Part shown: positions 11,053 to 62,600 of the stretch, one piece after another | Numbering within the stretch: position 1 is the first letter of the stretch | How the letters are laid out: the number at the start of each line of letters is the position of its first letter | Assembly: GCF_028389875.1 (NCBI RefSeq) | Contig: NC_084676.1 | Span: 1,240,001-1,304,000 of the forward strand | Reading direction: 5' to 3' | Length of the DNA stretch: 64,000 nt | DNA from: Rhea pennata | Taxonomy: Eukaryota > Chordata > Aves > Rheiformes > Rheidae | Position numbers and translations under genes: made by a program | The notes under the pieces: generated by a model | Told to the model about the DNA's origin: nothing | Database searches by the model: none | What the model saw: the letters and a program-made list of their open reading frames with translations, nothing else

Positions 11053-12021
11053 ATGATAATGTCTGGTAATGCTGCTGGCTTTCTGCTCAGCCCTGCGAAC
11101 TGGCTGCTTCGGAGGGTGCTGTGGGGACTGATGCTGATCTTGTCTGTAGCCATATATGGCTCTCATGCTCCCCTCCTAAACCTCTGTAAGGTGGATGGGA
11201 AGATCCCCTTCAGCTCCTCATCTGTTGTGGTTCTTATTGAACTGACGAAGTTGGTGTTCTCCCTCCTGTTTTTGCTGATCTGGGACCGAAAGCTGTTGGG
11301 AGGCTCTGTGTCATGGTATCATGTTGCCCCCTTTGGCCTCTCTGCCCTGCTCTATGCTGCAAACAACAACCTGGTGGTTCACATGCAGCTCTTCATGGAT
11401 CCCAGCACCTACCAGGTCCTGAGTAACTTAAAGATCGTCAGCACGGCACTCCTCTACAGCTTCTTTCTGCGCCAAAGGCTCTGCATGCGCAAGTGGCTGG
11501 CTCTCTTCCTGCTGACGGCTGCTGGGGTGAGCTACAGCTGTGGAGGCCTGCAGGACCCGCATGACCCTGGCAACCCCTCCAAGATGCAGCTGCACATCAC
11601 ACTGGTGGGCTTGCTGTTGATCTCAGTGTACTGCCTCATATCAGGCTTGTCTGCTGTATACACAGAAGCTATCCTGAAAGCCCAGGCTCTACCTCTCAGC
11701 CTCCAGAACCTCTTCCTTTACTTCTTTGGGGTTCTGCTCAATGTGACTGGCCACTTCTGGAGCAGCACAGAGGGAGGTTTCCTGGAGGGCTTCTCCTCCT
11801 GGGTGCTGGTCATCGTGGTCAGCCAGGCTTTGAATGGTTTGATCATGTCTGTGGTCATGAAGCACAGCAGTAACATCACCAGGCTCTTTGTGATTTCCTG
11901 CTCCATCCTTGTTAACGCCTTCCTGTCCGTCACCCTCTTTGACCTACAGCTCACCCTCTTCTTCTTCGTCGCTGTTGCAAGTATTGGCCTTGCTGTTCAC
12001 TTATACTATGGGATCACATAG
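11053..12021 (+). CDS. SLC35A4: SLC35A4, nucleotide-sugar transporter family protein, 322 aa
   Basis: An uninterrupted 322-codon frame in one exon; the human protein is 324 aa. It starts MIMSGNAAGFLLSP and ends AVASIGLAVHLYYGIT. About ten hydrophobic helices are spaced as in the SLC35A (UDP-/CMP-sugar antiporter) fold. Typical family blocks are present: LCKVDGKIPFSSSSVVVLIEL near residue 40-60, the ALLYAANNNLVVHMQ block, and the SVVMKHSSNITRLFVISCS block near the end. It would act in ER/Golgi membranes; human SLC35A4 has been tied to CDP-ribitol or to organising sister transporters, so the substrate is inferred. The frame lies 563 bases after the microprotein stop in the same exon, so translation depends on getting past the upstream frame, as described for the stress-resistant human mRNA. 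Confidence 0.95.
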   Translation: MIMSGNAAGFLLSPANWLLRRVLWGLMLILSVAIYGSHAPLLNLCKVDGKIPFSSSSVVVLIELTKLVFSLLFLLIWDRKLLGGSVSWYHVAPFGLSALLYAANNNLVVHMQLFMDPSTYQVLSNLKIVSTALLYSFFLRQRLCMRKWLALFLLTAAGVSYSCGGLQDPHDPGNPSKMQLHITLVGLLLISVYCLISGLSAVYTEAILKAQALPLSLQNLFLYFFGVLLNVTGHFWSSTEGGFLEGFSSWVLVIVVSQALNGLIMSVVMKHSSNITRLFVISCSILVNAFLSVTLFDLQLTLFFFVAVASIGLAVHLYYGIT

Positions 12022-14007: not shown

Positions 14008-17000
14008 TCAGGACGTCTGCGTGGCGGCATCGGCTGCGCCTTGCTGTTTGGCTGCCCTCAGCTGCTGGTTTTGTGCGGAGAGCTCCACAGCATCCTGGAG
14101 TGCCTCTTGCAGAAGTACCCGGTACTGGCGATCCAGTGCCTCTGCCTGCTCCTCTGCCAGGCGCCGCTGGGCCTGAAACACCTGCGAGGCAACTAGGGTT
14201 CCCTAATGCAGCCCTGGTGCTGTCCAGGGCCATGCCAGCAGCCTGGACGTGCGCCCCATGCCCACCTGCAGTGTGTGCTGCCTCCAGGCCTCCATCTCCT
14301 GCCGGTGACTGTGCAGCAGAGCCTCCAGATCCTCCTCAGCCATCTCACGCTCTCTCCGTGCTGCCTCTAGGCTCCGGCTCAACACAGTCACTTCCCACTG
14401 CCGGTGAGCTGTGTCCCGCTGCAGGGGCAGAGACAAGGACAAGGGCAGAGCTGCGCTGGAGTGTGGCAGCTGCCTGAGGCTCTTGCCTGCTGCTTTGCCG
14501 CAGGAGAGTGGCTCCAGGGAGGTGAGGAAGCTCCTGCTGAAGGCTTTACTTTAGCTCCAGTCTCTGCCCCTGTCCTACTCAGAGCTCTCCTGTGCCCACC
14601 TCCCCACTCACCTCCTGGCCTGGCGCTACCTCATCCCCAAACTCCCCGAGCTCCTGCTGGAGGAGCAGATGGTGTTGAGCCTGCAGGCGCTGCCTCCGGG
14701 CTTTGGCCAGGGAGAACTGGACCTCTAGGGACAGGCAGGGCTGGGACAGGCAGGGCTGGCACTGGCTCCTCGCCTGAGAGAGAGAGCAGAGAGGGTTTGG
14801 ACTGGAGCTGTAGGGCTTACAGTGAGGCACTCCCTTGCCCAGCCCCAGACAGGGACCCAGCAGGGTCTCGCTCACCACGCCAGCCCCACTCGGTGCCCAC
14901 TGCCACGGCGCTTTGCCCTGCAAGGGCTCTTCTGGCAGGCCCTGTTCTGCCCTCCTAGGGCCCTGGCTGTTCCCTCTCCAGCAGCTCTCAGCAGCACTGG
15001 CTCCTCGTTGGCAAGAGGGAAGGAAAATAAGTGTGATGTAGGGGGCTGGAGAAGCCAGTCCAAAGCCACGAACCCTTTTCCTCTTCAAGTCCCCTGAGCA
15101 GAGGGGTTTCCCATAATTTAAAGTGATGCCCCATGCCCATGTATCAGCCACCAGGGCACAGTGGCACATCTCTGTCTCCATATTCCATACCTTCCCCCTG
15201 CTCCAGACTGGGTCCATCCAGGGGCTCTTGGGTCCTAGGCTGTTTGCCCAGTGCTGGGTTCTCTGCAGGGACCAGGTCCTGTGGGAATAGGAGGTGTCAT
15301 TATGGGGATGTCACCAGGATTTGGGGCTTCTTCTATGTCCAGGTTGTCCCCACAGAGGGAGGTCTGGCCTGTGCCCACCTTGGCGCCAGGTTGATGCATC
15401 TGGTTTGCCCTGAATGCTTTGGTCGCCATCTGCTTCTTCTCCCACCTCTGGCTCTTCAGCACCTGGAAGAAGGGACTGGGCATCCTTGCTAGGGTGCTGG
15501 AGACTGCCAGGCATGGCACAACTGCATGGGCATGTCTCACTGCACTGTCCCCTCCCCCTAGGCAGGCTACCTCTGGCTCCCTTCCCTGCCCATGGTGCCA
15601 GACAAGGGTTTGTAACACCAGGACACAGCCAAGACCTCATCCAACAGGGGGGATGGTGCCACCCTGGGTCCCAGTTGAGGCACATGGTGCTCGGGGCATC
15701 CCTCTACCTGCAGCTCCTGCAGTGCTCTCCGCAGCTGGGCCACGGCTCTCTCTTGCTCCGGGCGGCCCGCTCCAGCCAGCAGCTTGGCCCGCAGCCCTCG
15801 GATCTCCACCTGCCGCACCGTGGCCTCTTGCACAGGGTCCCAGTGGGTGGGTGAGACTGTCTTGGCCAGCCCCTTCACCCGCTCAGCAAGTGCCAGGGCT
15901 GCCAGGATATCTTCTCCAGAAGTGTCTGAAAAAAATGTCTGGATGGTTGGATAGGGGCTGTGGTGTGCATGGGCCCAGCGATGTCCCCAGGCCCAGCACA
16001 GCATCGCAGCAGATGGGCCAGGCTGGCACAGATGGGCAGAGCTGGTGCCTGGCTTGTTGATGACCACGTGCATCCCCAGGCAGGGCCCAGGGCAGCAGGA
16101 GAGCAGGGACCAAGTGCCTGCAGCCGGGTGGGAGGAAGGTCCTCCCGAGGCGGTTATCCCCTTCCCGGGGTTACCTGGCAGCGTCATGCACAGCAGCAGG
16201 AATGTGAGGCTGTTCCCCTCCAGCAGTCGCTCGATGACCCAGGGCAGGGAGCCGGCGCTGGCCGGCGGGCGTCCTGTAGCCAGCGCCCCAAGCAGGGGTG
16301 AGAGCCTGGGGAGAGTCAGCATGAGGGGAGCGATGGGGCACAGAGGTGAGGGGCACAGCAGCATCACAGCAGGGTCTGCACCCCCTTGCTGGGCTGAGCA
16401 CCAGTCTGAGAGCTTTGGGACTGGTCTCCCAGTTAGCCAGACAGGGCCAGAGTGGGAGCAAGCCAGCCCGTGTGCCTGAGGGGTAGTGGGATCTTCCCTT
16501 AGCTCCCAGGCACAGGCTCCCATTGGGATACCAAGGCTCTCCTGCCCCTCTGAAGCCCAAACAGTTTCTCTTCCAGGTAGCGAACCTTGTCCTCACCCCC
16601 CTGCCCGGCACTGCTGGTTCATGGGAGTCCCTGAGAGAGGAGCTGGCTCAGCCCCACAGGCAGAGCCGCAGCTCCGGTACATACGGCTCAGGGCCGGGGC
16701 CCCCGGAGACAGCCAGGATCCTGAGAGCCGAGCGCCGGCACCCACATCCCTCCAGTTCCCACTCCAAGGTGAGCGTGAAGAGGCTGCTGGCCCTGCAGAG
16801 AGGCAGGCGGGTAAGCGGAGCTGTGGAGGTGACCTCGGCCTGGTCCCTCCCTATGCACCAGCCTAGCTCTGGCCCTCTGAGCTAAGCTGTTCCCAGAGCA
16901 TCCCTCTTCAGGTGCTACCCAAATCCCTCACCCCTGTGCAGCTGAGCACCCATCTGCCACGGGGCACTGCATGCACCCAGGGAACGGTGCTGGAAGGGCA

Positions 17001-19912
17001 CCCAGCCCCCATGCGTAGATGCTCATGGCAGCTCGGGCGTCTGGCACAGCGATTTCCATCACTTCCTCCACCATCCTGGAAGCAGAGAGAGCCAAGAGTG
17101 AACAAGTGGAGCCATGTTCACCCCACATCCCCGAGGGACTGGAGCATGAGCACTATGTCCCAGTCCCAGCCCTATGCCCCATGCCTGGCCATCAGCCCCC
17201 GCCCCCGAATGCAGATGCCAGAACATAGGGCACTGGATACCTACAAGCCCAGGGGTGCAATGTCCATCACCTGCAGGGCTTGGCCACCAGGACGGAGCAG
17301 GTCCCAGGCTCCTCCCTGGGCACAGACCTGGAAAGGCGCAGCATTAGAAAACAGAGCAGCAAGATGGGGCTGCTGGGACCTGCCCTGCTCACTGGAGCCC
17401 TCATTTGCTCATGCCCATGCAAATGTGAATGCTGGGAAGGAATATGTCTTGGAGCACCTCCAGCATTTCCAAGCCCAGGACTGGAGAGAGCCACTGCCCT
17501 GGGACATCGACAGGCACGCAGAGCCTGGCAGGCCCTGGCAGCATCTGGGAACCAAAAGCAAAAGCCTGGCCTGGCAGTGGAAGCTGGCATCTTCTTTATG
17601 CCAACTGAGCACAGATGGGAGGGTCTTTTCAAGCCATGAAGAAGGGTCAGCATCAGAAAAAGCCCCAAAGTCCAGACATGTGGTGGGAAAGGAGATATTA
17701 GAGGGTTCCCTGTGCCCACAGTGCTGCTGGAGCAGGGCAAGTGACATGCTGCTGGGGAAGCTTGGAGACACCCTCAGCCCCTCAGGGTGACAGGGAGGCA
17801 GGGCAGGCCTCCATTGCCTACAAAGACCTGTGAGGGGGTGAGAAAACCTGAAATCTCAAGGTCTTCAGCCCCTGGGGTTGGACACTGGTACAGTGTAAGC
17901 CTCACAGCACAGCAGTGGCTAGTCAGCAGCAGTGGCAGAGTGGGACCCCCACCCGGGGCACCCTGTCCCAGCCAGCCCTGCTCTCACCATACCTGCACCA
18001 GGCTGACAGTTTGCATGCCCCGTGTGTCACCTTCTGTGGCCTCCAGCTCTTGGAAAACACTGTCAATCACCTAGGGACAAGCCGACCAAGCTAGGAGCCA
18101 TGGGTTCCTCACACCTGTGGCTGGGTTTCACTCTTGTACCAGCAGGATCAGGGCCAACAGGATGAGCCTGATATCACCAGCCCGGGTGGGAGCCCAGAGC
18201 CCCGCACTACAGGGCACACTGGACACACTGTCATGTGTCCAGTGTCCACATGGCTGTGCCCTTACCTGCCAGATGATGTCCTGGAGTGGCAGCTGTGTCT
18301 CAGAACCATGAGGATCCCACAGCAGCAGGGATACACTATAGCCAAGGGGCACCAGGGCCAGCTGGGGTCTTGCCAGCTCCAAAACCTTCTCCTGGAAGGA
18401 GAGACATAGATGGCATAGCAGGGATGGCACAGCACATATGGTATGGCATGGCACAGAGCACAGCACAGAGCATGGCACAGATGGTGTGGCACAGATGGCA
18501 GCCACATCCCAGCACCTAAGAGTAGCCAGGAGGTGGTGAAGAGTAGCAGTAGAGCCACGCCTAGGACTAAGCCCAAGGTGCCAAGCACTGCCTGCAACCT
18601 CTGAGGAGTTGGCAGTGGCACTCGATACCTCTGGAGATGAGCCAGGTGAGCTGCAGAGTGATAGGCCCCTGCCTGGGGCCAGCATGTCCCTGGAGCACCC
18701 AGCTGGGGAGGGATGTAGGGATGGGGGTCTAGAAGGAGGACCCAGAGCTCACAGTACCTGTCCTGTGTCCAAGTGAAAGATGCCATCGATGGTCAAACAG
18801 CTCTCCTGGCAGGAGGGAATGAGTATGTTAACGGTCAGCTGTCCGCTGTTCCAGTGTGACCAGCGCAGGCTGCAGGAGGGACTTGGCAGTGCTGCATCTG
18901 GGCATGGCATGGAGGGCCTGGCACAGGCCTGGAGGATGGTGGAGATCCCCTTCCTTCTCCTGCTCTCTGCTAGCTCTCAGAACCCCCCCAGAAGGATCCA
19001 GAGAGGCATACGGCAGGTCAACCAAAGGCTTCAGCACCCATTGGGATCCTGAGTGTGACAGGCCTCTACTGGGGGTCCTGGTCTGGCAGGTGGCTGGGAT
19101 GGGGACCCCTGCTCCCATCTCATCCCCCACGAACCCTCATCCCCTTAGTTCCCTTGTCCCTGCCATTCTCACCTGGACCTCCCTCTCCGCAAAGAGGAGC
19201 CGTGCGGGATCTTCGCTGCTGGCCATCTGGCTCTGCCCCAGCCCTGTAACACCACAAGTGGGTGATGCAGGGAGGGTGCCATCCCCACCAGACCCCACTA
19301 CCCCTCCCTCAGAGCCGGCTCCTAGGGATTTCACATTCGCCATCACTGTGAGCCCTCCTGCTGTGACCATGGCACTCAGCACCACAGCATGGGGGAGGAT
19401 TCCCTCTCCCTAACCCCCCCCCCCGGCCAGTCCCACCAGTATGACCCATGGTCCCAGTGCCACAGTGCCACCCAGTGCCACCACAGCACCCAACCCTAGT
19501 TCCCTGGGGAGGCATTTGGGCAGGGCCCCATGCCCAAAGGGGCTGGGACACTGCAGCTGCAGCCACTTCCCAAGCCCTGGCCCTACCTGCTGCCCGGTGG
19601 AGTCCTACAGCTGCTCGTACGCGCACATCCTGCTCGGCCTGGAGGGATGTGTGGTAAAGGGGGCGTGAGCTGGGTCCTGCCCCAACCACTCAGCACCGTA
19701 AAGAGCTGGACGAGCCCTTCAGGCCTGAGCAGCATCAGGCCACACCATGCCAAAGGCAGAGGGCAGATCCCCCCAAACCAGCCTGTGCTGTCCCACCCAA
19801 GGACGCTCACCTTCTCAGCATCCATGACCAGCTCAATATGAGCAAACTTGGAGCTGGTGCTTGGGACAGGGCAGAGGATGAGGTTACAAGGGGTGATCGC
19901 GTTTCCGTGCAT
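14008..19912 (-). CDS. Kinesin-like protein with degenerate motor domain, about 649 aa (17 exons)
   Basis: Exons, 5' to 3': 19912-19811, 19638-19587, 19243-19173, 18805-18758, 18391-18266, 18070-17993, 17327-17245, 17075-16932, 16792-16685, 16305-16175, 15925-15708, 15462-15379, 15278-15191, 15003-14876, 14773-14612, 14418-14266, 14181-14008. All junctions are GT-AG, phases match throughout and the sum is 1950 bases. A kinesin motor order can be followed: CLTIDGIFHLDTGQEKVLE (FDxVF and tip), GYSVSLLLWDPHGSETQ (P-loop site, about 117-123), GASSLFTLTLE (switch I site, about 236), LRILAVSGGPGPE (switch II site, about 262-267), RLLEGNSLTFLLLCMTLP (the LGGNSKT strand) and DILAALALAERVKGLAKT (neck). 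GQTGSGKT, SSRSH and DLAGSE are all lost, so ATP hydrolysis is unlikely. A coiled coil fills residues about 340-640; the end AATQTS resembles a dynein-light-chain TQT motif. The start may be M1 or a later ATG in exon 1. The family name is unknown to me. Confidence 0.78.
18400..18505. repeat. Simple minisatellite in the kinesin-like gene intron
   Basis: Repeated 'ggcacagagcat' and 'atggcacag' type units, 10-15 bases each and imperfect, lie in the intron between the 18758-18805 and 18266-18391 exons. No coding sense. Confidence 0.5.
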
Positions 19913-22422: not shown

Positions 22423-23790
22423 CTACGCCCCCTTCACAGCCCTGCGGCAGTCCTGGAACAGCCTGTACCTGGATTTGGCCAGGTAGACTGCTCCAGCCAC
22501 ACAGAGTAAGGCAAGAATAATGCAGATGGGAGTGATCACCGCAGCACTGTTGCACTGCAGTACTGAGACAGGCACATCTTTCACCAGAATGCCCTGGTAG
22601 TGAGGGGGTGCATGGCACACATAGCCATGGGGCCAGGCCGGCCCTAGGTGCACCATTGCTGCCAGTGTCTGGATCCCCCTGGCCCCAGAGCATGAGCAGT
22701 TGTAGGGGTTGCCAGCTGCAGCCAGGTCCTTCAAGTGCTCCAGGACCCGCACCTCATCCCAGGGCAGCTCTGGGATCAAATTGTCATCCAGATGGAGGAC
22801 TTCCAACACGGGGCAATTCCTGATGAAGGAGGCATCTTGAAGCATGTTTTGGCTGAGGAGGAGCGTCTTCAGGGAGCCAAAAGAAATGTCTAAAGTATGG
22901 AGGTGGTTGTAGCTCATGTCCAGCACTTCTAGATTGGGAGGCAGAGGTGTGGGGACTCCATCCAAGCCAGTGCCAGATAAGTTAAAGATTCGAAGGGACA
23001 TCGGCCACTGGCAGGAGGAGGCCAGACCAGCAATGAGCTTGTTCTGGCTGATGTCTAAATGCTGGAGCTCATGCAGCAGCTGCAGGCTCTCACACACGCT
23101 GTGGTAGGATGTCAGGTTGTTGCGTTGCAGACTCAGTAACTGGAGCTGTGGAAATGCACCCTCACAGAAGGTGGGCATCAAGCTGTCATCCCTGAGGCTG
23201 TTCTGTGCCACATCCAGGGAGCGCAATGTTCCGAAAACTCTGCCGATGGCACAGGGCAGGGTGGTGACATGGGAGCTGGTGACTGCCAGCTCCTGCAGTG
23301 TCTCCAGCCAGCTGCTTAGGCTGGAGAAGCCCTGCTCACGGCCTGTCAGAGGGGCTGACGTCACGTTGTGGAAGCGCAGGGTCAATATGGGTAAGTTACA
23401 CCCGGCCATTTCGGTCCAGTTACTTCTACCCGCAAAACTGCAGCTCTCAAACACCAGCTCCTGCACTCGGGTGTAGGAAAAGAACATCAAGACCTTGGCA
23501 AGCAGGACCTCAGGCACCAGGAGGTCTCCAAAGACAAGTTTCCTGATGTGGAGGGTTTCCAGCAAGTCCATGGTGGAGGGCTGCAGATTGCTAATAGGTA
23601 AGGCTGCATACTTCTCCAGGTCTCCCCCCCAAAACTCCACAACAGAGGCTGGGAGGCACTGGATGATGCTCCCCAGGGTCTCCTCGGACAGGCTACGGCA
23701 CACACAATGTTCCTCAGTGCGGTTGAAGAAACACCTGCCTTCTCCCTCCACCAGGCCCAGCCCCAGCAGAAGGAGGATGGCCACATTCAT
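22423..23790 (-). CDS. CD14: CD14-like LRR receptor with C-terminal transmembrane helix, 455 aa
   Basis: I start at the ATG at 23790 because it opens a signal peptide (MNVAILLLLGLGLVEGEG) followed by CFFNRTEEHCVC. An acceptor-like 'tttctag' lies ten bases upstream, which fits the 5' intron of CD14 genes. The same frame is open a further 66 codons upstream, but that part has no signal-peptide logic. About ten leucine-rich repeats follow (LRSLDVAQNSL, LQLLSLQRNNL, LQHLDISQNKL, LEVLDMSYNHL, LKTLLLSQNML, LEVLHLDDNL), then a cysteine cap (NPYNCSCSGARG). It ends with VITPICIILALLCVAGAVYLA, a membrane helix at about residues 415-435, and a 20-residue basic tail. CD14 hands lipopolysaccharide to TLR4/MD-2. 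Mammalian CD14 is GPI-anchored; chicken CD14 is transmembrane, as here. Its place between SLC35A4 and TMCO6 is the conserved location. Confidence 0.93.
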   Translation of the reverse strand: MNVAILLLLGLGLVEGEGRCFFNRTEEHCVCRSLSEETLGSIIQCLPASVVEFWGGDLEKYAALPISNLQPSTMDLLETLHIRKLVFGDLLVPEVLLAKVLMFFSYTRVQELVFESCSFAGRSNWTEMAGCNLPILTLRFHNVTSAPLTGREQGFSSLSSWLETLQELAVTSSHVTTLPCAIGRVFGTLRSLDVAQNSLRDDSLMPTFCEGAFPQLQLLSLQRNNLTSYHSVCESLQLLHELQHLDISQNKLIAGLASSCQWPMSLRIFNLSGTGLDGVPTPLPPNLEVLDMSYNHLHTLDISFGSLKTLLLSQNMLQDASFIRNCPVLEVLHLDDNLIPELPWDEVRVLEHLKDLAAAGNPYNCSCSGARGIQTLAAMVHLGPAWPHGYVCHAPPHYQGILVKDVPVSVLQCNSAAVITPICIILALLCVAGAVYLAKSRYRLFQDCRRAVKGA

Positions 23791-23800
23791 GGCGAACAGC

Positions 23801-26524
23801 CTAGAAATGAAGAGCGCGAAGGTGAAAGGCAGCACTTTGCTTTGGCAGTGGCAGCAGAGAGGAGCACAAAAGGAATGGGAAGGGCTGATCTGGGTCTGTT
23901 CAGCACAGGAGAGCCTGAGCAATGCGATAGCCTCACAGAGATGGTGCTCCCCACACCTGCCTGACTGCCCTTCGTATGGGTCCAGCACCCCTGCGCCTGG
24001 TCACTTTGCCAGTGCAAAGCTCTCAACCCCAAAAGCAGGAGTTCAGCAAGACAGGGCTGAGACGCAGACAGCAGACCTCCCCCCGAGGCAGTGGCTGCCA
24101 CACAAGTTTCATGCCTGGGTCACCTTCCTGCAGAGCCTCCTGTGTCTAAATGACCGGCAAATTTTGAGGATCAGGAAAAATGAGAAATGCTGAGCAATGC
24201 ACAACAGAGCCCGATCTATCGGGTTGCAAGACAGAAGAGCCACAGATCTGGGTTTCTGCGTGGCTCTGCGCAGTCCAGGACAGGAAATTGCAGCACTGGG
24301 CTTCATATTTTCCTTTCTCACACAGGAATTTGATTCATTACCAGCTGGCAAGTGGACAGCTGGAAATCATTTCTGAGGCTCTCTAACGCCCCTGGCAGCA
24401 CCGAGATTGTTTTTCTGATGGGAGAGTCTTATTAATAGCTTGCAAAAAAGTGGCAGTTAAAGATTAAGAGCTCCTAAGACTGTGCTGTCTCGGTTCAATC
24501 GAGGACCCCTACAAGTGGTGGAAAGGGGACTTTGGGAGTCTCTGGTCCAGCCTCGTGCTCGGAGCAAGACTGTTGCCGGCAGTAGCCCAGGCTTGCCACA
24601 GCTTTCTCTGGCTGAGTCTCAAATACCTCCGAGGACAGTGGTTTCCCCACCTCTCTGTGTCATCGTGGGGTTGCACCATTCTCCAAGGGAAAATCTATCC
24701 TCCTGGTGCAAAGAAGCACTTGCATGAAGCCACCCCTCACCAAGGAAGCAGCATTAAGCAAGGGAGGGGGGGCTGTCCAGGGACTCACCGGCCAGGTTAC
24801 AACTGAAATCTTTCCCTGTGCTGTGGCTGCTTTCTCTCGCTGTTGCCAACTCCTAGGTTCAGGTGTCAGACTCCTAGGTTCTGCTCTCCAGAGCCAGATC
24901 TTCCCCTGCGTAAGGAGACTTTCCAGCCCGCAGGTGTCTTCCAGTTGCTGTTTCCTCTTTTGCAGCCCTGTCCTGCTTGTGTTTAGTGAACACAGGCGTC
25001 CCCCCGCCCTGCATCACCCGCCTTGATCCACGCACCCAGGGCTGGCAGACACGTGGCAGCAGGCTCCCGGGCTCTGCACCAGTCCTGCTGAGGAACTTCC
25101 TGAGCGTGACGGGGCCTCCTGGGCCTCAGAAAGCAACCGCCCTAAGTCACTTCTGCTCCACTTCCCTGTATCTAAGGGTTCCCAGATAACCACAGCTGCC
25201 CTTGGCTGCAGGCAGGGAGGGATTTTGGTCTAAGTGCCAATAGTCTCAGCTTTCCTAGGAAGGACTGGGGAACAGTGGGGCTGGGGTGCCGTGAATGCAC
25301 CCGAGTCTGGCTGGTCAGCACCCTGCAGCCACCAGTGAAGGAGGATTGTCACATCCTGCCTCCAGACAGTCCCTGGATCCCTGTGTGCCATGTAGGATGG
25401 GACATCTACTGACAAAATACTCTTCGCTCCCCTCAGCCTCTCACACAATCTGCTCCACACTACACAGCCCAGTGCTGCTAAGGACACTTCTTCATCCAAG
25501 GTCGGGCATTCTTGGCAAGCTGGCTCCTTCACTGGGCCAAGGAAACCACACACACCCTCTGCCCTGTGCTCCAGAGGCAACTGCTCTTGGCGGTGCCTGC
25601 TCCAAATCTTAATGCTGCCTGTCAGTGAGCAGAGATCACTAGGCATTTTTTGAAAGACACCAGTTTCCTCCACAAGAATTTCTCTGTGTCACCAAAAGGT
25701 TTCAGAAAGACAGCGAAACAGCACAGCTGGAAGACGCAATTCCCGGTTCGTTGTTGATGTGACCCAGCAGGGAGAGATGATCGGCATAAGAACTTCTGGG
25801 GCCCAGGATGCCTGGTCCTGGCTCTCTGGCACTGTCTTTCTGCAGCAGGTGAAGGGAAGATCTCTATCCACTTGTTGCATGCATGGCAGTTCCTTTTCCT
25901 GCTCTCAGCATTGTGGGCTCAATGTTGCACTAATTTCACTTCCTTTTCTTGAGCAATCCAGCGATTCTCCTTCTCCTTCTTCTTCTTGGGTTACATGAAA
26001 CCACTTCCATGTAAATTGCTGAAAAGTTGCAGCAGCCTTTTTGAGTTCCCCTCACTACTTCCCTTGGTGAAATCAGTGCTTCTAACTCGCTAGGTCTGGT
26101 ACTTTTTAACTCTTTCTTCTTGCTGTCTGCTGCAAATTTGCCCAAACAGCTTCTTCTTGTAAAAATGGAGTTCTTCCATCTCCTTAGTGGTCTGCTACAT
26201 TCACCTTCCAAGGCACTTGATTTTGCACCTGCCCTTGGGTGACATCCTTCTGGTTGTAACTTCTACCCTGAAAGATCCCAGCACACTGCCTGGAGCTGAC
26301 ACCCCAGCTGTGGACATACGGCCACACTGTGCGAGGGGGACTGAGGGACTAACTCTGCTTGCTGGCATCGAGGGCACAGCAGGGCACCGTGCGCCAGGTG
26401 CGGCGCTGCAGTGTGGCGCCGGGCCGGGCCCCGCCTTCTCGGGGGCTCCCGCTGGGATAAGCTGGGATAGGCCGGAGGCCCCCAGCTCGCCAGCGAAATG
26501 CTCCCAGCCCCAGGACCGGGCTGC
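23801..26524. other. Interval between CD14 and the TMCO6 promoter
   Basis: This holds the CD14 5' flank and likely 5' UTR exon (acceptor at 23801), one minus-oriented CR1 fragment (24525-24720) and otherwise sequence in which I see no gene. Frames here are short or lack motifs. Confidence 0.5.
24525..24720 (-). mobile_element. CR1 LINE 3' fragment
   Basis: Read on the minus strand the right edge matches the CR1 tail ('gaggctggaccagagactcc', like the consensus 'gttggactagatgatctcc'). The rest follows the upstream CR1 3' region with many changes. It is an old copy. Confidence 0.55.
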
Positions 26525-26935
26525 ATCCCACCGCCCACCAGCAGTACCGAGGCCCCGCCCCAAGGCCCCGCCCCGAAGCCCCGCCCCTCCGCCCGCCAGC
26601 GGCACTGAGGCCCCGCCCCCAATGCCCTGCCCCACCGCTTGCCCGCCCGCCCGCGTCCTCGAGGCCCCGCCCCACTGCCCACCAGCAGTACCGAGGCCCC
26701 GCCCCGCCGCGCCCCCGAAGCCCCGCCCCACCGCCTGCCAGCGGTACCGAGGCCCCGCCCCGCCGCGCCCCCGGCCCTATCTTCCCCAGCAGTGTCCATG
26801 GCCCCGCCCCCTCCCGCCCTCTCGCCCCGCCCCCAGGGTCCCGCCGCGCTCCCTGCCGGCCGCGCCCCGCCCCCGCCAGCCGTACGCATGGCCCCGCCCC
26901 CGCCCCTCTCCCGGCCCCGCCCCGCCCCGCCGCCG
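26525..26935. repeat. GC-box minisatellite upstream of TMCO6
   Basis: A unit around 'ccagcagtaccgaggccccg' recurs near 26537, 26597, 26683 and 26740, embedded in a run of more than fifteen CCCCGCCC or GCCCCGCCC boxes that continues to the TMCO6 start codon. Each box is an Sp1/KLF site. This tandem array is probably the core promoter. The long open frames that cross it on both strands are a by-product of GC content. Confidence 0.75.
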
Positions 26936-26948
26936 CTCCTCCGCCGCC

Positions 26949-47882: not shown

Positions 47883-47978
47883 AAAAGGGCCAGGGGTGCC
47901 CGCGGGAATCGAACCCCAAACGGGGCGAAACTGAGCACAACTCAATTTGCCGAAGTAACCGCTGGGCTATAGCCGGCC
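47883..47978 (-). ncRNA. Vault RNA gene (pol III, about 96 nt)
   Basis: Minus-strand sequence starts GGCCGGCTATAGCCCAGCGG, continues TTACTTCGGCA, and ends CCCGCGGGCACCCCTGGCCC followed by TTTT (47883-47886). Human VTRNA1-1 has GGCUGGCUUUAGCUCAGCGG UUACUUCGACA at the start and CCCGCGGGCGCUCUCCAGUCC UUUU at the end, so both arms match nearly base for base while the middle differs, as is usual among vault RNAs. The A box TAGCCCAGCGG (47959-47969) and a perfect B box GGTTCGATTCC (47905-47915) are present, and the ends pair as a terminal stem (GGCC with GGCC). Vault RNAs ride in the MVP vault particle and also exist free, with roles in autophagy and small-RNA production in mammals. In human they sit in the same syntenic block, near ZMAT2. 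A tRNA is excluded by the absence of an anticodon arm. Confidence 0.92.
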
Positions 47979-48211
47979 CCGGCGTTCTTCTGCCCTCCCC
48001 TGCTCCTAAGAGCTCGGGCTGCGGCCGCACGCAAGTGCAGCCGTGACGTACTGCGGGCGGTGGGCGGGGCTGCGGCGGCCCTGGGAGGGCTTTAGCGCCC
48101 GGCGCTGCATGCAAACGAGGGGGCGGGGGGTGAGCCTGCGCCTGCGCGCGGGGCGGGGTCTGCGCCGGGGTGTGCACCTGCGCCTGCGCGGCGCGTGGCT
48201 GCTGGGCCGGC
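47979..48211. promoter_or_regulatory. Divergent promoter interval: vault RNA (-) and WDR55 (+)
   Basis: The RNA 5' end and the WDR55 start codon are 234 bases apart. The interval is CpG-rich. It holds a CRE-like TGACGTA at 48044-48050, GC boxes (ggtgggcggggctg near 48060; gggcggggtct near 48150) and Myc-like GC elements. CRE-like upstream elements are known for vault RNA genes, so the site may serve the pol III side, the pol II side or both. Confidence 0.65.
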
Positions 48212-59661: not shown

Positions 59662-62600
59662 CTACATGAGCTGGCACCCTGTGACAGAGAGAAAAGTATC
59701 AGGCTCTGCAGGAAGCCAAGAGCTCATAATCCCAACACCTCCTCTTAGCTCCTCATGCCCTTTGCTTCCAACCAGGAACCCCACTCCACTCTTGCATATC
59801 CTAGATTTGGGCTCAAATCCTTGCCCCACTTGCCAGGCTATGCTGGGTCCTTCCCCGATTGGGTCCCAACCTGCCCTATGGAACACACAACTCCCACAGG
59901 CCCAGAAGATGCTGTAAGACGTTGGGAGAGGTGGGTATTGTGCTGGCTCTGTGGAAGGACTCACCTAGTATCCTGAGCACCTGCAGTGCCATCATGTCCT
60001 TTGCCTTTTCATGCCCACTGGCACCTGGCACGTCTTGCCGGACCCATGTGAACCCACTGAAGGGCATTGGGTACGCCGGGATCACCACTTGACACCAGAA
60101 CCGCAGCCACCCATCAGGGTTTTCCTGGACACATTTTGTAAAGAACAAGGGGGTCCCCAGGTGTCTCCTTCGGCACAGGGCATCCAGACGGTCCAGCACA
60201 TTGCACAACACTGGAGACAGGGGCACCTGTGCCTGCCTGAAGCTCCCTGGAGACTTGACACGTGGCACCCAGATGGCCAATGGCTTTTCCTCACTGGATC
60301 GTAGCTTCTGTTTCAGGTCAGGTTTCAGCCAGTCCACCCTCATTTCCTCCTCATAGATCCTCATATTCCCTGTGCAAGAGAGATCTCAGCTTGCAAGAGA
60401 CACTTGTGCACCAGCCCTCTACCTCTCAGGAGTGCTACAGGCTCTGCAGTCACTATCACACTGTCCCTTCCTGTTCCCCAGCATCTGGCACAATGACCCA
60501 AGGGCTAGTCTAACTCCGACCCAGAGTGCATAAACCACAGAGGATCCTCCACCTCTGTGACACCTCGCTCAGCCACAGGCCAGCTCTCATTTCAGAGTAC
60601 TGCTTCTCCACTCCATTTTGCAACCAAGCTAAGCTGGGGCACAGGGCTGCAAAGCTTGGGTGTTTTTAGAGACAGACTACAACTACCTGGAGACAGGTGC
60701 AAAGACGACGGAGCCAAATGCTTCTCAACTGGGGCAGATAAAAGTTGGAGACAGACACAAAAGCTGAGAAGGTTCAGTTTGGACCTTTGGGAAACATGTC
60801 CCATAAGAGGCTAGTGGAGCCCTGGGACAGGGCACTGAGAGGTGTGATGCCTCCACCAATGCGGTTTGCAGAACTTGGCCAAAGCCCCAGCTGACACAGA
60901 CCAGTACTGCTGGTGTCCTTGCTCCAAGCAGCCAACTAGACTGAGGCCCTCCAGATGCCCCCAGCACTGCTCAATTTGCATAATGACTGCCAGGGATCAG
61001 CCTCATAGAAGACCACTGCTCTTAGAGGGAACATGGGGAGAGGACAGGGGATGCGATGTCTCAAGGCTGAAGTCACCCCCCAGCTGAGCCTGGAGCTGGG
61101 GCCAGTGCTTGCCTAGACATACCAGGAAGACAAAACCCAGCACCATCCCATAGCAAACAAGCCTCCCCCTTGCCTCCCAGTACCTTCCATCAGGCTTTTC
61201 TTGGCCATGGCAGCAGCCCGGTGTGAGTTGTACTTCAGCACAGCAAGGTGGGCCTGCTTCCAGTAAGGGCTGGGATACAGCGTGATGCTGAGAATGCCCT
61301 CAGCAGCCTCCTGCAGCATGGCCTCCAGGTGCTTCCGGCTCAGCGAGGTGGCCAGGCCATCCATGCTCAGCTCACACTTCTCCGTGCTCTTGCACACCAG
61401 GATGGCGCAGCCTTCCTGCACCTCAAAGTTGTTGAGGGTGGTGATTGCCACCTTGGCACTGCGCCGGTTGCTGTACTTGGCATAGGCAAAGCCCCGGTTG
61501 AGCCCACTGAATGTCATCATGAGACGAAACTCATAGAGCTTCCCCACACTCTGGAAGAGGGGGATCAGCGTGTTCTCGTACATGTCCTGTGGCAACTTCC
61601 CAATGAATACCTCCGATCCCGTTGGTGGGGGGTCACCCACCCAGCCTGCAGGTACACAGTGACAGTGCATAGGGGCAAGACCCACTTAGCCTCCATGCCC
61701 ACCAGACGCCCAGGCATGCCACGCTTCCAGTGCACGGCAGTACTAAGATACCCTTCACATACCTGGTGGTGGGCCGCCATATCGCCTCTGCCCGTTGACC
61801 TGCACTAGGTCGATGCCAGTTTCCTTCATCCAGGTGAGCAGGGCCATCTTATTGACTTGGTTGATGCTGTCAGTCCAAGTCTGCAAAGGCAGATGACGCT
61901 ACAACGGCTCTGGGCAAAGAGTTTCCAGCCTCCCAGCGAGGCGCATCCCAACCCCAGGAAGCAACCATAAGCCCTACCACCAGCTGGCCACGGAGGAACA
62001 AATGCTTTGCTGCTCTGCCTTTAAGGTAAGGCTCCTCGGGAAACCCGAGCGGACTCCCAACACTGTACGTTCTAAGAGCTTCCACGTGTGCTCTCCAAGT
62101 CTGCTCCATGTGAAACAGTCAACTCCAGAGATTTTTGTACAGCACAAGGACACTGTTGGTGTTCCTCTACAGATACCCATTGGAGCTTTGAAAGCAAAGA
62201 CATAGGCACCTGCTCAATAGCCTGCACTGTTGCAAGAAAGGGCTAGAGCCCTTTCTGGGACCCCCCAGACAGCCAACTCTCTTCTCTGCCAGCACCTTCC
62301 TATGCTTTGGGGTCACAAAAACTTCAAGGAGGGACTGAAAACACCACCTATGTGACAATATTATGCTTTAGCTCATTAAGTGCTGCAAGGTCCCATTAGG
62401 GCCTCTGAAGGCCACAAACTGAGTAGATTAAAATGTACCCAAATGGGTAACTTCAATCTGATGTACCTTTGCATCATCAGGTAACGGCTGCTCTCTCTCT
62501 CCAAGCTGTTGGTCTTTTTCGAAGGTGAGAAAACAGTTTTGTATAGAGGTGGGGACTCTACAGTGGGTCAATTCTGCTGAGAGGGAGCGGAAAGACCAGC

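Follow-up and report, generated by a model that had tools for sequence, protein, structure and literature searches.

Gene content of the window and the gene model

The window, by which we mean the whole stretch of 64,000 nucleotides of Rhea pennata DNA that was analysed, contains a kinesin-like gene on the minus strand, with its start at 19912 and its end at 14008. A gene for a nucleotide-sugar transporter of the SLC35A4 type lies at 11053..12021 on the plus strand (Pfam PF04142, 4.2e-39), and a CD14-like leucine-rich repeat gene lies at 22423..23988 on the minus strand (the open reading frame as listed, with matches to Pfam LRR families); these two are probably SLC35A4 and CD14, respectively. 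The CD14-like gene is placed upstream of the kinesin-like gene and head-to-tail with it, both being on the minus strand. One turtle record (P0024) and one bird record (P0018) join leucine-rich repeats to the kinesin-like gene, representing either read-through transcripts or annotation merges, and a further record (P0023) carries the name CD14, which fits the adjacency of the two genes in several sauropsids. Elsewhere in the window, Pfam identifies RRM and DND1 domains at 59876-61685 on the minus strand. A vault RNA gene (47883-47979, minus strand) was identified with Rfam model RF00006 at 68.8 bits, the gathering score being 34; the Rfam scan gave no match inside the kinesin-like gene (19912-14008). 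The interval 26527-26948 contains GC-rich tandem arrays with units of 5 to 58 bases, within a 2-kb stretch of 68% GC.

The kinesin-like gene was modelled as a chain of 17 exons with GT-AG sites, which gives a single open frame of 649 amino acids plus a stop codon. All 16 introns are GT-AG by construction, since GT-AG sites were chosen when the chain was built. The donors of exon 8 (at 16932, GGG/GTGAGG) and exon 9 (at 16685, GCC/GTATGT) were set by comparison with relatives. Other splice choices at these two exons give chains of 627, 644 or 658 amino acids, likewise without internal stops, and were dropped after comparison with the emu and turtle proteins; in the 627-residue chain, exon 9 is read in a frame without kinesin similarity.

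The 649-residue protein consists of a kinesin-like head (~35-330), a neck-like stretch with an SQRWEKK motif that extends to ~405, a variable linker and a C-terminal coil (~501-649), the borders between these regions having been set by us. All exons are on the minus strand. Exon 1 (19811..19912) holds the start codon at 19912 (MHGN...), with MDAE as a second possible start; in the protein alignment, the beginning MHGNFI recurs in the turtle records P0007, P0012 and P0021. The first motor strand, which aligns with relatives, is encoded by exon 2 (19587..19638); it is followed by exon 3 (19173..19243), taken from the exon chain, and by exon 4 (18758..18805), which encodes LTIDGIFHLDTGQ at the position of the kinesin FTFDxVF strand. 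Exon 5 (18266..18391) contains the former P-loop, where DPHGSETQ occupies 18293..18316 as counted from the sequence and placed by the alignment. Exon 6 (17993..18070) is again taken from the exon chain, and exon 7 (17245..17327) encodes WDLL and PLGL. The protein runs up to the switch I region in exon 8 (16932..17075), which has the same length in the owl record P0002, while exon 9 (16685..16792), based on the emu and turtle proteins, covers the end of switch I and the switch II region, with AVSGGP at 16696..16713 located in the same way as the P-loop segment. The alpha4-L12-alpha5 position (LPWVIERLLEGNS) is found in exon 10 (16175..16305), the alpha6 position together with a neck-linker-like and neck-coil-like stretch in exon 11 (15708..15925), and the SQRWEKK motif after the neck in exon 12 (15379..15462). 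Exons 13 (15191..15278) and 14 (14876..15003) encode the variable linker; both fit the emu protein and are otherwise weakly supported. The C-terminal coil starts in exon 15 (14612..14773) and continues through exon 16 (14266..14418) and exon 17 (14008..14181), the last of which also holds the stop codon; the parts encoded by exons 16 and 17 are helical in the model of an owl relative. Within exon 15, a 15-base tandem repeat of 2.1 copies (14728-14759) encodes a repeated QPCLS, and the QPCLS repeat is present in the emu protein too.

The 16 junctions were compared with the proteins of eight relatives, among which the emu record begins in exon 7 and covers junctions 7-16. Junctions 4-7, 10, 11 and 16 are well supported among the eight proteins, except that turtles and gavial show a gap of 1 residue at junction 4 and one of 6 residues at junction 5, and that the short record P0004 departs at junction 16. 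At junction 3, chicken has 28 additional residues. Junction 9 matches emu, turtles and gavial; the records of chicken and of the two owls diverge at this point and do not match. The four junctions within or close to the linker (12-15) match emu and are poor or gapped in the other proteins. An earlier note on this DNA had described the frame as intact through 17 exons, and the annotated bird and turtle proteins agree with this. A chance open frame, or a pseudogene private to the Rhea pennata genome, is ruled out by relatives in many clades, because annotated emu, owl, chicken and turtle proteins match.

Relatives in other tetrapods

The nearest named relative of the window protein is that of emu, with 84% identity (81% in the search with the 658-residue chain); the values for owl, chicken and turtles are 69%, 65% and 50-54%. 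A protein search that used the earlier 658-residue chain returned 35 relatives (19 bird, 12 turtle, 3 crocodilian and 1 tree shrew), and 32 of these records are uncharacterized, hypothetical or unnamed by the first name given. The remaining automatic names of relatives conflict with one another (KIF3A, KIF4A, KIF17, CENP-E, plectin and CD14), and partial or low-quality records occur among the relatives. Searching from the tree shrew (Tupaia) protein P0035 gave 192 proteins, and the 120 that were listed are mammalian apart from record P0111 and include mouse E230025N22Rik. No human or ape protein is named among these 120 of the 192 matches, from which nothing follows for the status of the gene in human or apes. 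A search from six turtle records, one crocodilian record and the window protein gave 41 proteins: 16 turtle, 3 crocodilian, 17 squamate, 1 bird, P0158, P0170, the caecilian Microcaecilia (P0178) and an ordinary kinesin (P0179), which does not form part of the family alignment. This word-limited search yielded no relative from frogs or fish. A passage of PMC2764143 places Slc35a4 and then Cd14 with nothing between them, in human and Anolis; the search from the turtle, crocodilian and window proteins nonetheless found an Anolis relative (P0166).

The earlier note knew of no mammalian counterpart of the gene, which proved to be wrong, as mouse E230025N22Rik (LOC240216) and many other mammalian genes are relatives. 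The mouse gene is linked via Tupaia: the window protein matches P0035 at 2e-34, and P0035 matches the mouse protein P0121 at 1.4e-174, with homology over head and coil in the searches and the alignment. The mammalian relatives have the order of head, neck and coil that is seen in the window protein and are 33-40% identical to it; in the rows shown, residues are missing at the P-loop, and in several the switch exon is absent. We regard the gene as the avian member of a family, as yet uncharacterized, to which mouse E230025N22Rik also belongs. The long conservation that had been supposed for it is borne out by relatives in birds, turtles, crocodilians, squamates, a caecilian and mammals.

Kinesin ancestry and the motor motifs

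When the window protein is used alone, its match to the Pfam Kinesin family stays below the cut-off (E 0.06; an alternative head chain gives E 0.013), and its head finds KIF1A in the PDB at 0.0038. Profiles built from the family reach PDB kinesins at 8.4e-15 with 21 sequences and at 9.8e-19 with 37 sequences, the 60 rows shown for each being kinesins, in agreement with the kinesin ancestry that had been proposed. PF00225 (Pfam Kinesin) is matched by 15 of 21 members at E values up to 0.1 (best 5e-13) and Pfam Microtub_bd by 5 of the 21 (best E 0.0091), while the caecilian protein alone finds KIF13B in the PDB at 4e-15. By this homology, the ancestor of the protein was a kinesin whose motor lay at the N-terminus. 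The best match varies with the query: the caecilian protein matches KIF13B best, the 37-sequence profile KIF4, and the turtle protein P0006 kinesin heavy chain. The likeness to kinesin-3 (KIF13B, KIF1A, KLP-6) comprises the caecilian match to KIF13B, which is the best single-sequence match of that protein, a WEEK-like motif after the neck that aligns with the caecilian protein, and the two best PDB chains in both of the fold searches described below. However, the window protein contains no FHA domain (Pfam), and the 37-sequence profile ranks KIF4 and kinesin heavy chain above kinesin-3, so that kinesin-3 is one of several candidate parent families.

The structure prediction that the earlier note had recommended was carried out on the owl and caecilian relatives. 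The owl model has a mean pLDDT of 66 and a pTM of 0.54, with 218 of its 625 residues below 50, and the caecilian model has a mean pLDDT of 77 and a pTM of 0.67; a long C-terminal helix is present in both. Foldseek searches against the PDB gave kinesin motors as the best matches, with a best E of 1.8e-14 for the owl model (TM-score by target 0.28-0.56 among the 50 rows shown) and of 4.2e-20 for the caecilian model (0.35-0.74 among the 50 rows shown). These models of two relatives suggest that the head of the protein adopts the fold of a kinesin motor. Of the rows shown, 50 per search, all could be assigned to kinesins save two chains of 9ijj. These two, chains c and d of a structure of the central apparatus of the mouse sperm axoneme, are high-ranking fold matches over ~480-500 alignment columns.

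The consensus sequence of kinesins at switch I is SSRSH. The consensus motifs for the P-loop, GQTXXGK(S/T), and for switch II, DXXGXE, are given in a passage of PMC5076506. All three had been reported as lost from the window protein, which indeed reads DPHGSETQ at the P-loop and AVSGGP at switch II and has no SSR at switch I. In an alignment of the window protein with 178 relatives, these catalytic-motor motifs were looked for across the family. The Walker A pattern [AG]xxxxGK[ST] occurs in none of the 171 rows that cover the P-loop, and SSR occurs in none of the 91 rows that cover switch I. The caecilian alone keeps part of the P-loop and of switch II: it is the one row of the 171 with GxxxxGK (GSQCSGKD) and the one row, among the 95 that cover switch II, with DxxG(x)E (DLVGE). 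The same record (P0178) lacks the FTFDxVF strand, probably as a result of an exon skipped in the annotation. The switch II columns are covered in fewer rows than those of the P-loop (95 vs 171), and several mammalian records lack that exon; therefore, the kinesin fold may be loosening in mammals. Because Walker A is absent in all rows and the caecilian alone keeps GxxxxGK and DLVGE, the loss of the motifs appears to be old and was perhaps stepwise. The simplest reading, for which we depend on one caecilian record, would date the loss to before the common ancestor of amniotes and take the amphibian as a stage on the way; the alternative to a single early loss is that the motifs may have been lost in parallel.

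Possible roles of the protein

The surface of the microtubule is acidic, and the part of the motor head that would face it has changed in this family. The L12/alpha5 signature PYRxSKLT is found in 0 of 179 rows, not every one of which covers that place. The net charge of alpha4-L12-alpha5 has a median of -4 (range -8 to +1, 175 rows), and the head has a median pI of 4.6 (extremes 4.05 and 7.1, 145 rows of suitable length), the caecilian head being as acidic (pI 4.7). In a small control set, the ordinary kinesin P0179 has a head pI of 7.7 and an alpha4-L12-alpha5 charge of +7, and the corresponding stretch of KIF4 has a charge of +1 with 7 basic residues. Canonical docking on the microtubule seems unlikely because the signature is lost and both the alpha4-L12-alpha5 stretch and the head are acidic. 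The protein could still bind microtubules without nucleotide, through non-canonical docking like that of the KIF26A or Vik1/Cik1 heads, and so tether cargo or partners. KIF26A and KIF26B (kinesin-11) are kinesin-superfamily proteins of mammals, and passages of PMC7862435 describe the Kif26a head as divergent and without ATPase activity and report that it binds microtubules; no KIF26 chain is among the PDB rows shown for the present family. This precedent, the kinesin homology, the fold matches and the Microtub_bd matches can all be cited for such a binder, but with the signature missing and an acidic head set against an acidic microtubule we consider it unlikely. A related possibility is that the protein serves as the non-catalytic partner of an active kinesin, as Vik1 and Cik1 do for Kar3, its coil pairing with a catalytic chain and tuning the movement. 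The yeast proteins combine a kinesin-like head without catalysis with a coil, the same two elements as here, and that head serves as a foothold, according to passages of PMC4338441; in these passages, the head is C-terminal and the pairing is with the kinesin-14 Kar3, whereas the head of the window protein is N-terminal. Since the Vik1/Cik1 heads help to hold the microtubule (PMC4338441), a function that the charge pattern disfavours here, we consider this arrangement unlikely as well. As Kif26a and Vik1/Cik1 show by example, a kinesin head that lacks catalysis may still be important to the cell; these examples do bind microtubules, and for the present family such binding is less likely. The earlier note had proposed a microtubule-binding or scaffold protein, and the first part of that proposal is weakened by the loss of PYRxSKLT and a mostly acidic surface, while the second part, a scaffold, is the reading that we prefer.

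Two other explanations would do without a scaffold. The gene may be dying, with relaxed constraint and an open frame that is a remnant, and regional identities, calculated by leaving out residues that face gaps, were used as a substitute for dN/dS. Compared with turtle P0006, the window protein is 56% identical in the head, 52% in the neck, 59% in the coil and 32% in the linker; the values for squamate P0159 are 44% (head), 54% (coil) and 16% (linker), and those for lemur P0039 are 34%, 40% and 20%, respectively. In these comparisons, head and coil are conserved, and far better than the linker, which drifts; this argues against decay, as do the annotated frames across birds, turtles, crocodilians, squamates, a caecilian and mammals. 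Putative transcripts point in the same direction: the lizard-like records P0158 (614 amino acids on a contig of 2056 bases) and P0170 (549 amino acids on one of 1842 bases) have contiguous frames that look like spliced RNA. Decay would be consistent with the mammalian records that lack the switch exon, with the partial or low-quality records among the relatives, and with the dN/dS above 1 that a passage of a hare study reports for E230025N22Rik (PMC6065068), a value that may mean either relaxed constraint or positive selection. Weighing these observations, we regard a dying gene as improbable. The protein might also still work as an ATPase through a nucleotide site of unusual make-up, for which GSQCSGKD and DLVGE in the caecilian could be cited, but GxxxxGK is absent from the other 170 P-loop rows and some residues are missing at that place in the mammalian rows shown, so that this explanation can be given hardly any weight.

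The preferred reading, in which we have reasonable confidence, is that this is a real, conserved gene and that its product is a kinesin-derived, non-catalytic, probably dimeric protein of kinesin fold that works as a scaffold or regulatory subunit. The head would keep the motor fold but would not bind ATP. A helix of ~100 residues at the C-terminus, as it appears in the predicted models, could pair two chains, and the paired molecule would then present two kinesin-fold heads to a partner protein, with no walking on microtubules. The broader proposal, that a tetrapod-wide kinesin family gave up both its ATP chemistry and its microtubule surface and was kept as a two-headed scaffold, is plausible to us and is put forward tentatively, as we are not quite persuaded of it. 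Going by divergence times, the family would then have persisted for at least a quarter of a billion years. If the broader proposal is true, the caecilian protein, in which P-loop and switch II are partly kept, would stand midway between motor and scaffold, and therefore the steps from one to the other could be read off living species. The known uses of the kinesin fold would be broadened by a conserved family that has neither catalytic nor microtubule signatures, and the path by which a motor became a scaffold could then be traced. The reading also offers a hypothesis, open to testing, about a gene that most records leave uncharacterized, hypothetical or unnamed.

To our knowledge, the gene has no KIF name of its own. 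The number of KIFs counted in mouse and human is 45, according to a passage of PMC7862435. In the literature searched, no work on the function of E230025N22Rik was found, the passages that mention the gene being of a non-functional kind, and chicken LOC107054473 had no literature match. Among the matches listed for inactive kinesins, none concerns a gene of this family, and the passage matched by the term pseudokinesin concerns fungal sequences. The family is recorded but uncharacterized, and its nature as a motor turned non-motor was not found in the literature searched. As regards transcription, a table for uterine luminal epithelium in PMC8967306 lists mouse E230025N22Rik with values from 0.05 to 3.7.
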